From Deltaproteobacteria bacterium (GTDB lineage Bacteria; Myxococcota_A; UBA9160; UBA6930), in NCBI GenBank assembly GCA_016875395.1, contig VGRF01000030.1, positions 1 to 53,046 on the forward strand: DNA of 53,046 bases, in the 5' to 3' direction. The position numbers were made by a program, and so were the translations under genes. This document shows, piece after piece, positions 1-20,923 of this stretch. The notes below the pieces were generated by a model, which saw only the letters and a program-made list of their open reading frames with translations, did no database searches and had not been told where the DNA came from. How positions within the stretch are numbered: the stretch's first letter is position 1; the number at the start of each line of letters is the position of its first letter.

Positions 1-126
1 CGTGGATGAACCGATTCCGCCGGCTCCTCGTCCGCTGGGAGAAGCGCGAGCAGAACTACGAGGCAATGCTCCATCTCGCCTGTGCCTGGATCACGATGAA
101 ACTGGCTGGGGTTTTCGGATAGGCTC
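1..126 (+). mobile_element. Right end of an IS5-like insertion sequence
   Basis: The window opens inside an insertion sequence. A transposase 3' end is followed directly by GGTTTTCGGATAGGCTC, whose reverse complement (GAGCCTATCCGAAAACC) resembles IS5-family terminal inverted repeats. The trinucleotide TAA at 127-129 is a plausible target-site duplication, and the sequence after it is the remaining part of a palindrome found complete at 6010-6068. The element therefore appears to have inserted into that repeat. The exact boundary is inferred because the left end lies outside the window. Confidence 0.7.
3..122 (+). CDS. IS5-family DDE transposase, C-terminal fragment (cut by window edge)
   Basis: This is the last 39 codons of a transposase reading into the window and ending at TAG. 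The peptide begins WMNRFRRLLVRWEKR and continues with NYEAMLHLACAWI. This is the typical tail of IS5-family (IS427-like) transposases, in which a conserved Arg/Trp/Glu-rich helix after the last catalytic acidic residue precedes a hydrophobic LHLACA helix. The catalytic DDE residues lie upstream of the window, so activity cannot be judged. The family assignment rests on this tail alone but the pattern is characteristic. Confidence 0.8.
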   Translation, partial: WMNRFRRLLVRWEKREQNYEAMLHLACAWITMKLAGVFG

Positions 127-169
127 TAAGTAAAGCTGCGTTCTTCTTTACTTACTTGCGGAACGTCCC
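127..169. repeat. Palindromic repeat of the RAYT-linked family, left arm cut by the IS5-like insertion
   Basis: The right arm at 146-169 (CTTTACTTACTTGCGGAACG followed by TCCC) is identical to the right arm at 6045-6068. Only the inner nine bases of the left arm survive (TAAGTAAAG, 127-135). The missing outer left arm would join at the IS end, so the palindrome has been split at the TAA inside its GCAAGTAAGTAAAG segment. This is one of three copies of the same family in the first 7.2 kb. Confidence 0.85.
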
Positions 170-6009: not shown

Positions 6010-6068
6010 GGGGACGTTCCGCAAGTAAGTAAAGGAACCCACGGCTTTACTTACTTGCGGAACGTCCC
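6010..6068. repeat. Complete RAYT-linked palindrome, copy downstream of the transposase
   Basis: The left arm at 6010-6034 starts GGGGACGTTCCGCAAGTAAG and the right arm at 6045-6068 ends CTTGCGGAACGTCCC, with a ten-base loop (GAACCCACGG). The arms pair perfectly over 24 bases, with one unpaired G at the outer end. In RNA or single-stranded DNA this would be a very stable hairpin. It is the best-preserved copy and shows what the truncated copy at 127-169 looked like. Confidence 0.9.
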
Positions 6069-6110
6069 AGGTCGGTGGTCGCCGCGACTGCGGTCTCGCT
6101 GCTCGACCTC

Positions 6111-6947
6111 TCAGCCGCCTCGTGACAGCTCAGCCTCGACGATCTGGCCCACGGCCTGGCGGGAGATCCTGAGCCTTCGCGCGACATCGCTCACCCTCAT
6201 CCCGAACACGAGGACGGCGCGAATCACGACTCTTCGCCGAGCAGCGACGACCGCCGGCAGGCGGCTCCCCGTCAGAAGCGCGGCGGGGTCAACAGATCGC
6301 GCCGCGCACACCTCCTTGACCAACACTTCGAACTCGAGGGCGCCGGTGACGACGCGCTCCAGCCGCGGCTTCACATCGAACTCGCGCCACTGCGATGGAT
6401 CGCGCGCGGGCTCCGCGCGCTCGATCGCCGCGACAAGCGTCCGCGCGTCGCCGCCGAATACCGCAAGCGTCTTCCCTACCGATTCGAACGCGCGCGCCTC
6501 GCGCACACCAAGCACTGCACCGAGGCTGCACCAGCGCGAGGCGATGACTTCGTCGAGCGTCAAGCCAATCTCGATCTGGTTGCGGAACACGTACGCGATC
6601 GACGTCTTGCGATACGCGTCGTCGTGGATCAACTCCGAGAGAAAGCGGTTCTGGAAGAGGTGACCGTCGCGGTCGTGGCGCAAGTTGAAGCGCATCGCGT
6701 AGCCCGTAAGCACACGCGCCATCAGCTGCGAGAGGCCGCCGATGCCACTCTCGAGAATGAAGTGCGCGTGATTCGACATGAACGTCGACGCGAGGCAGTA
6801 GGCGCCGAGCGCAGGCACCCAGCGATCGAGGCGGCTGGCGAGGTCTTCTCGGTCGTGGTCGTCGCGGAAGATGTCGCATCCGTCGACGCCGCGAATCATG
6901 ACGTGGTGCGTGACGCCGGGGGCGTCGAGACGGGGGCCGCGAGGCAT
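6111..6947 (-). CDS. REP-associated tyrosine transposase (IS200/Y1-type, RAYT)
   Basis: This 278-residue protein begins MPRGPRLDAPGVTHHVMIRG, the usual RAYT start. The HUH motif is SNHAHFIL (His60 and His62) and a conserved tyrosine lies in TGYAMRFN (about 83), followed by HLFQNRF and a conserved VFRNQ segment. The C-terminal 60 residues carry a helix-turn-helix (MRVSDVARRLRISRQAV), as in several RAYTs. These enzymes are single-strand endonucleases that recognise and spread REP palindromes. The start at 6947 is preferred over an upstream in-frame one because of the conserved N-terminus and a GAGAG ribosome site. All catalytic residues visible to me are intact. Matching palindromes occur on both sides. 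Confidence 0.88.
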   Translation of the reverse strand: MPRGPRLDAPGVTHHVMIRGVDGCDIFRDDHDREDLASRLDRWVPALGAYCLASTFMSNHAHFILESGIGGLSQLMARVLTGYAMRFNLRHDRDGHLFQNRFLSELIHDDAYRKTSIAYVFRNQIEIGLTLDEVIASRWCSLGAVLGVREARAFESVGKTLAVFGGDARTLVAAIERAEPARDPSQWREFDVKPRLERVVTGALEFEVLVKEVCAARSVDPAALLTGSRLPAVVAARRRVVIRAVLVFGMRVSDVARRLRISRQAVGQIVEAELSRGG

Positions 6948-7069
6948 GGGGCTCTCTCGCGGGACCTGCGGGGTGGAAGGCGGCAGCTTCGTCGTTGCGA
7001 GGAACGCGCGCAACGAGAACGCGCGTTCACGCGCGAGCCGGGCCGGGGGCGGTGGAGGTGGCCCGCCTC

Positions 7070-7129
7070 GGGGACGTTCCGCAAGAAAGTAAAGCTGGGA
7101 CTTTCTTTACTTGCTTGCGGAACGTCCCC
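7070..7129. repeat. Complete RAYT-linked palindrome, copy upstream of the transposase
   Basis: The left arm (7070-7094) reads GGGGACGTTCCGCAAGAAAG then TAAAG. The right arm ends CTTGCGGAACGTCCCC at 7129. The stem is imperfect in the middle, where AAGAAAGTAAAG faces CTTTCTTTACTTGCTTG, so this copy differs from the 6010 copy by small changes in the inner stem while keeping the outer 14 bases. Confidence 0.9.
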
Positions 7130-11858: not shown

Positions 11859-11876
11859 GGTTCCCTCCGGGACGTG

Positions 11877-11930
11877 CAACGGGGACGTACGTGCAACTCA
11901 ACGCGTTCACTTGCACGTACGTCCCCGTTG
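11877..11930. repeat. Perfect 20-bp inverted repeat, second palindrome family
   Basis: CAACGGGGACGTACGTGCAA (11877-11896) is repeated in perfect inverse orientation at 11911-11930, with a 14-base centre that itself contains AACGCGTT. Outer copies of CGTCCCCGTTGC (11920-11931 and 11931-11942) extend the structure to about 11945. It shares the GGGGACG/CGTCCCC ends of the RAYT palindromes but has a different stem interior. It lies between the P450 stop and the epoxide hydrolase start. Confidence 0.85.
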
Positions 11931-11947
11931 CGTCCCCGTTGCACGTG

Positions 11948-20867: not shown

Positions 20868-20923
20868 TGTGCCCGCACGTCCCCGGTGCGCGCTCTCGTG
20901 CACGTGCGTCCCAGGTGCACGTC
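20868..20923. repeat. Repeat of the GGGACG/CGTCCC class between the efflux genes
   Basis: Two direct copies of a unit close to CGTCCC(C/A)GGTGC-CG (ACGTCCCCGGTGCGCG and GCGTCCCAGGTGCACG) lie 26 bases apart, with GTGCACGTGC between them able to form local stems. The unit recalls CGTCCCCGTTGC next to the 11877 palindrome. It occupies the gap between adaptor and pump and includes an ATG at 20867 that would falsely lengthen the pump gene. Confidence 0.6.

Follow-up and report, generated by a model that had tools for sequence, protein, structure and literature searches.

A TIRYT-like Y1 transposase flanked by palindromes of a dispersed, probably cognate repeat family

Here, we describe a TIR-associated tyrosine (HUH/Y1) transposase (TIRYT) that is likely to have a cognate repeat family spread in trans as hairpins. 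Its gene lies in the window, i.e., the whole 53,046-nt stretch of DNA analysed, which is contig C30 of a 4.51-Mb genome in 96 contigs. The association between enzyme and repeats is proposed because both flanks of this gene, and of both its paralogues in the same genome, carry their own repeat families.

Transposase gene and flanking palindromes

The gene and the two palindromes beside it are located as follows (window positions):

6114–6947, minus strand: TIRYT/RAYT-like Y1 transposase gene, 278 amino acids from the ATG at 6947
6011–6068, plus strand: downstream palindrome with an unbroken 24-bp stem and a 10-nt loop
7069–7130 (core 7071–7128), minus strand: palindrome upstream of the gene, 17-bp outer stem, C·T mismatch and 8-bp inner stem

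The frame of the transposase is also open upstream to a TTG at 7013, and the ATG at 6947 is the start conserved among its relatives. Numbered from this ATG, the protein has the HUH motif H60-A-H62 and the catalytic tyrosine Y119, with a spacing of 57 residues between H62 and Y119. H60, H62, and Y119 are invariant in 24 of 24 aligned sequences from this genome and relatives of the same order, which bears out the initial annotation of a Y1 transposase with intact HUH and Tyr residues. With these residues in a Y1 core, the protein belongs to the HUH/Y1 superfamily (TnpAY1). Pfam Y1_Tnp is matched by all 24 sequences, with the window protein at 17.5 under the curated cut-off of 23, and its score against the RAYT model NCBIfam NF047646 (29.2 bits) is below the curated cut-off of 80. 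A C-terminal helix-turn-helix (HTH) spans about residues 234–272 and reaches 19.8 bits against HTH_23 (cut-off 24.6); among the aligned sequences, Bac_DnaA_C is matched by 10/24 and HTH_23 by 8/24. The profile of the 24-sequence alignment weakly matches E. coli TnpAREP (PDB 4er8; E 5e-4) over the core, where HUH and Tyr of the two line up, and its C-terminus matches DnaA chains (DnaA C-termini).

Both flanking palindromes have 15-bp GGGACGTTCCGCAAG arms, so that the gene does lie between two palindromes with a matching outer stem, as first noticed. The copy at 7071 has two further paired bases and the layout CGGGGACGTTCCGCAAG-C-AAGTAAAG-loop-CTTTACTT-T-CTTGCGGAACGTCCCCG. Position 16 of the arm is mismatched in the palindrome at 7071–7128 and paired in that at 6011–6068. 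The window holds five exact 15-mer arms, all of them palindrome arms. With 35 loci in the genome, a given gene would have family members within 150 bp on both of its sides by chance with a probability of about 1e-6 (per family).

A third family member lies at the start of the window, next to an insertion sequence (IS):

1–126, plus strand: right end of a presumed IS5-like element, inverted repeat end TTTTCGGATAGGCTC at 112–126
127–169, minus strand: right part of a third family palindrome split by the IS, TAA target duplication at 127–129

We take the element to be IS5-like, judged from its ends. The initial annotation listed 127–169 as a third copy; it belongs to the family but is not whole, being the right-hand portion of a palindrome that this element interrupts. 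Contig C23 starts with the other end of an IS copy, followed by TTACTTGCGGAACGTCCC, and carries the left part of the palindrome at C23:128–145. The flanks on C23 and C30, with the TAA counted once, make a complete family palindrome, hence the third copy is a palindrome split by insertion; the two contigs are probably neighbours. Elsewhere, nearly all IS ends are at TTA/TAA-type sites. The insertion into one copy, and the resemblance of closed terminal inverted repeats to MITEs, would suit the explanation that the palindromes are miniature elements moved by another (DDE-type) transposase, for example that of the IS5-like element. We nevertheless consider this very improbable, given that the ends of the IS (TTTTCGGATAGGCTC) bear no relation to GGGACGTTCC, that the other 18 of the 20 IS ends found (L119–L138, at contig borders) lie outside the palindromes, and that no target duplication flanks the palindromes, which share only C(G/A)..(C)G as outer bases.

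Palindrome family across the genome

Exact 15-mer arms occur 62 times in the genome versus 0 times for the reversed control. Pairing of these arms yielded 35 full palindromes of about 57 nt, in which one copy on overlapping contig ends is counted twice (L050/L057), leaving 34 distinct palindromes plus the one split by the IS. The count disposes of the possibility, raised by the initial annotation, that the genome holds only the three copies seen in the window. A few half copies are also present, at C2:46661 and C31:1080 and as two direct copies at C53:8437/8477.

Arm positions 1–15 are paired in 32–35 of the 35 copies and positions 17–24 in 29–35. Position 16 is paired in just eight copies and mismatched in 27, the mismatch in oriented copies being T·T in 19 and C·T in 6; when the right-hand base was permuted among copies, 13.9 paired copies were expected on average versus the 8 observed (p 0.02). 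The stem is extended by two bases, C(G/A) and (C)G, outside which conservation largely ends. Nearly all copies start the stem with GGGAC, with C(G/A) before it in every copy except two, and no GT[AG]G tetranucleotide was found at the hairpin foot in this family. The predicted hairpin stability is about -29 kcal/mol (DNA parameters).

According to a rough GC-frame gene model, 29 of the 34 palindromes are intergenic: 18 between co-directional, 5 between convergent, and 5 between divergent genes, and one at a contig end. Three of the five palindromes called inside genes are near probable over-long gene starts. The initial annotation suggested mapping the copies between convergent genes or after genes; the palindromes placed by this model have no bias toward gene 3' ends.

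At six loci, two palindromes of the same orientation are 131–284 bp apart, and where the case is clear, the DNA beside the palindromes is co-duplicated with them. In the four alignable pairs, the outer arms differ in 3/120 versus 49/425 for the flanks (p 0.001), and in 1/90 versus 31/359 (p 0.01) if pair L053, with the least certain flank alignment, is left out. This suggests, for a few loci, that selection or conversion acts on the palindrome arms. We rejected the tandem pairs as insertion footprints, as the duplicated units take in flank and their borders do not coincide with the palindrome; ordinary duplication can be the source of the tandem clusters.

Paralogues and their repeat families

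The window transposase gene is present as one copy in its genome. Several copies of a gene-bearing element, as in IS200/IS605, were not found in this genome, where the only paralogues, on contigs C6 and C25, are 34–36% identical; a plasmid search returned partial, distant matches only. Each of the three paralogous genes is flanked on both sides by a dispersed family of its own. For the C6 paralogue, this is GGGACGTACGTGCA (71 exact copies, 99 with at most one mismatch, control 0), and for the C25 paralogue GAGACRTTTCGGCC (19 exact, 52 with at most one mismatch, control 5). Two loci of the GGGACGTACGTGCA family lie in the window:

11876–11931, no strand assigned: inverted pair from the second family (GGGACGTACGTGCA), whose cognate gene is the C6 paralogue and not the window gene
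20899–20912, minus strand: single degenerate copy of the second family (GGGACGTACGTGCA), one mismatch

The GGGACGTACGTGCA family is mostly arranged head-to-tail, with an exact 29-bp period in 33 of 35 same-strand neighbour spacings. Such arrays are unlike the organisation of the palindrome family of the window gene. At the locus of the third paralogue (L037, C25:59600–64600), GAGACRTTTCGGCC hairpins are present on both sides, with the foot GAGAC instead of GGGAC. We did not call the C25 paralogue a pseudogene: an open frame of 261 codons runs from the conserved Met, and so the one TAG reported for it is probably before the start.

Relatives and other genomes

With a threshold of E 1e-20, TIRYTs were detected in 19 of the 80 order genomes searched, which hold 1–3 each. 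Matching inverted arms enclose most of these genes (GGGGACGTTGTTGAATAGTTGA, GGGGACGTTCTTTCCGCTGTTTCCG, GGGGACGGTCCTTAACG, GGGGCCGGTTCC, and others); the arms usually start with GGGAC, followed by a gene-specific tail. Upstream arms scored 24.6 on average against the reverse complement of the downstream flank of the same gene versus 9.7 for mismatched gene pairs, and 16 of 25 loci (own genome and order relatives) were above the 99th percentile for arm match. Arm similarity tracks protein similarity (Mantel r 0.42, p 0.0002), a correlation that is weak without near-orthologues (r 0.23, p 0.06); near-orthologues with common arms and flanks are L075/L090, L081/L082, and L092/L093. The TIRYTs L072, L092, and L093, from two genera, are located between TetR-like and acyl-CoA dehydrogenase-like genes, apparently at the same locus, and their arms differ between the genera (GGGGACGGTCC versus GGGACAGTCCC), as if changed in place. 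As relatives have such arms around the gene in the form of terminal inverted repeats, the best reading of the palindrome of the window's genome is a miniature derivative made of two terminal repeats with a short loop between them.

The exact arm of the window family is nearly absent from order relatives, with one isolated arm in each of 2 of 60 genomes, and the palindrome family was not found in the order relatives searched. These relatives carry TIRYTs with other arms, so the absence of the family fits fast arm turnover rather than a lack of association. Excision, empty sites, or polymorphism were not seen in the genomes compared, all relatives being from other genera. For the active or recently active REP system initially suggested, we therefore replace "active" by "amplified in this lineage".

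One copy of each gene, and one to three TIRYTs in each of the 19 TIRYT-bearing genomes out of 80, are also compatible with domestication, in which the transposase would no longer be mobile and would serve as a housekeeping single-strand DNA editor, while the palindromes would no longer spread and would have become fixed between genes as binding or processing sites (with roles in replication, supercoiling, or mRNA stability). Near-orthologues keep arms and flanks in common, so that the genes look vertically kept, and arms are more conserved than flanks. However, the near absence of the exact arm from order relatives indicates that the family probably spread after divergence, and the arms of its copies are still nearly identical, which suits a spread not very long ago. 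We regard domestication as conceivable but lean against it.

Closed palindromes with a GGGACGTT core were rare in genomes of the order (0–2 each) except for 35 in genome G036, in a scan whose limit on the gap leaves out 57-nt palindromes such as those of the window's genome and which is blind to longer forms. The G036 palindromes (loci L101, L109, L111–L113) have the form GGGACGTTCCTG..CAGGAACGTCCC, several of them flanked by GTTGACTTG..CAAGTCAAC. We rejected G036 as a second case of palindromes with a cognate enzyme, as both TIRYTs detected there have other arms. A palindrome family thus need not show its enzyme. A perfect 30-bp palindrome, GGGACGTTGGTGAATATTCACCAACGTCCC, occurs in different surroundings in three genomes of one genus (L103, L104, L105, L110), only one of which has a TIRYT that was found.

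Among 84,980 species genomes, a set that may lack the genome of the window itself or others very close to it, a scan for the palindrome found hairpins only in Kineococcus (2) and Actinomadura (1). No TIRYT was detected in these Kineococcus and Actinomadura genomes, two actinobacteria, which contain 18 and 22 exact GGGACGTTCCGC 12-mers, respectively. The hairpins, in Kineococcus xinjiangensis (L096, L098) and Actinomadura (L097), are intergenic and have the same GGGACGTTCCGC stem. We take them as look-alikes, probably terminators or an unrelated repeat. Such look-alikes without a detected TIRYT, together with the stability and mostly intergenic position of the window family's hairpins, would agree with the palindromes being ordinary bidirectional terminators or RNA hairpins amplified by selection, whose place beside the transposase is secondary. 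This explanation is improbable in view of the three transposases that are each flanked on both sides by a different family, and of the distribution relative to genes described above; moreover, the palindromes have conserved 15-mer arms with no U tract.

Classification and comparison with known systems

We class the window enzyme as a TIRYT (TnpAY1 subclass 2.1-like) and not as a REP-type RAYT with GTAG/GTGG REPs, because it has an HTH/DnaA-IV-like domain at its C-terminus, its hairpins show no GT[AG]G foot, and its relatives have a TIR architecture. The initial annotation as a RAYT with cognate palindromes stands in that a Y1 transposase of the RAYT superfamily occurs with about 35 cognate palindromes; its class had to be changed. 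As in the TIRYT/TIRtron elements of Di Nocera et al. (2013, PMC3733652), an HUH/Y1 transposase is flanked by inverted repeats from a repeated family, the repeats occur in dimers or clusters and are at times self-complementary, and a genome can have several TIRYTs with differing arms. The gene-specific flanking inverted repeats of this class are whole palindromes at the window gene: closed 57-nt forms in about 35 copies, not single arms. A further difference is the start of the arm, GGGGACGT, which fits 6 of the 8 positions of GGGGWSAS and is thus two positions off this motif, described for many, not all, TIRs (PMC3733652).

The aligned family combines a Y1 core with a C-terminal Bac_DnaA_C/HTH_23-like domain (HTH_23 scoring under its cut-off in the window protein), a domain pattern shared with TnpAY1 subclass 2.1.2 (Quentin et al. 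2018, PMC6006769), which its authors consider a probable counterpart of the TIRYTs described by Di Nocera et al. (PMC3733652). The 57-residue HUH-Tyr spacing is near the 58–67 median range of most TnpAY1 subclasses (PMC6006769). While REP-like sequences were reported as not found near subclass 2.1 genes (PMC6006769), dispersed hairpins flank all three genes here.

With REPINs and their RAYTs (Bertels and Rainey 2011, PMC3116915), the window family shares inverted doublets that form hairpins, an extragenic and dispersed distribution, one enzyme per family, tandem clusters taking in flanking DNA, and isolated half copies. It differs from them (PMC3116915) by the lack of GT[AG]G, a 9–10 nt loop between the arms, and an enzyme with an extra HTH domain. 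E. coli TnpAREP (4er8), with its aligned HUH and Tyr, likewise has a hairpin substrate with an imperfect stem, but the profile match to it is weak and confined to the core, it has no HTH domain, and its substrate has a GTAG foot, other than the foot here.

Proposed mechanism and significance

By analogy with established HUH/Y1 biochemistry, we infer hairpin recognition, cleavage at the hairpin foot by Tyr119, and copying in trans for the proposed TIRYT with its cognate repeats. Briefly, a palindrome that becomes single-stranded, in the lagging-strand template or by extrusion, would fold into a long hairpin. The enzyme would recognise the GGGAC-footed stem, and perhaps also the mismatch at position 16, while the HTH domain might add double-strand binding. 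Tyr119 would then cut at the hairpin foot and rejoin the DNA, and palindromes without a gene would be copied in trans into positions between genes, in line with what has been proposed for REPINs.

More tentatively, and with somewhat more doubt than belief on our part, we propose that TIRYT elements with a gene between two single inverted arms became REPIN-producing in this order: in the lineage of the window, the arms would have joined up as short palindromes, with separate amplification for each of the three paralogues. The GRGAC foot would have remained fixed and the remainder of the arm would have changed; this foot may be a general recognition or cleavage guide of subclass 2.1 and the tail a family-specific address, possibly read by the DnaA-IV-like domain.

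The system in the window is a well-formed new example of a known, little-studied class, the TIRYTs. Three enzyme-repeat pairs in one genome and about 20 gene-arm pairs from the order are ready substrates that could show what a Y1 transposase gains from the DnaA-like HTH and in what way such enzymes change their target sequence.
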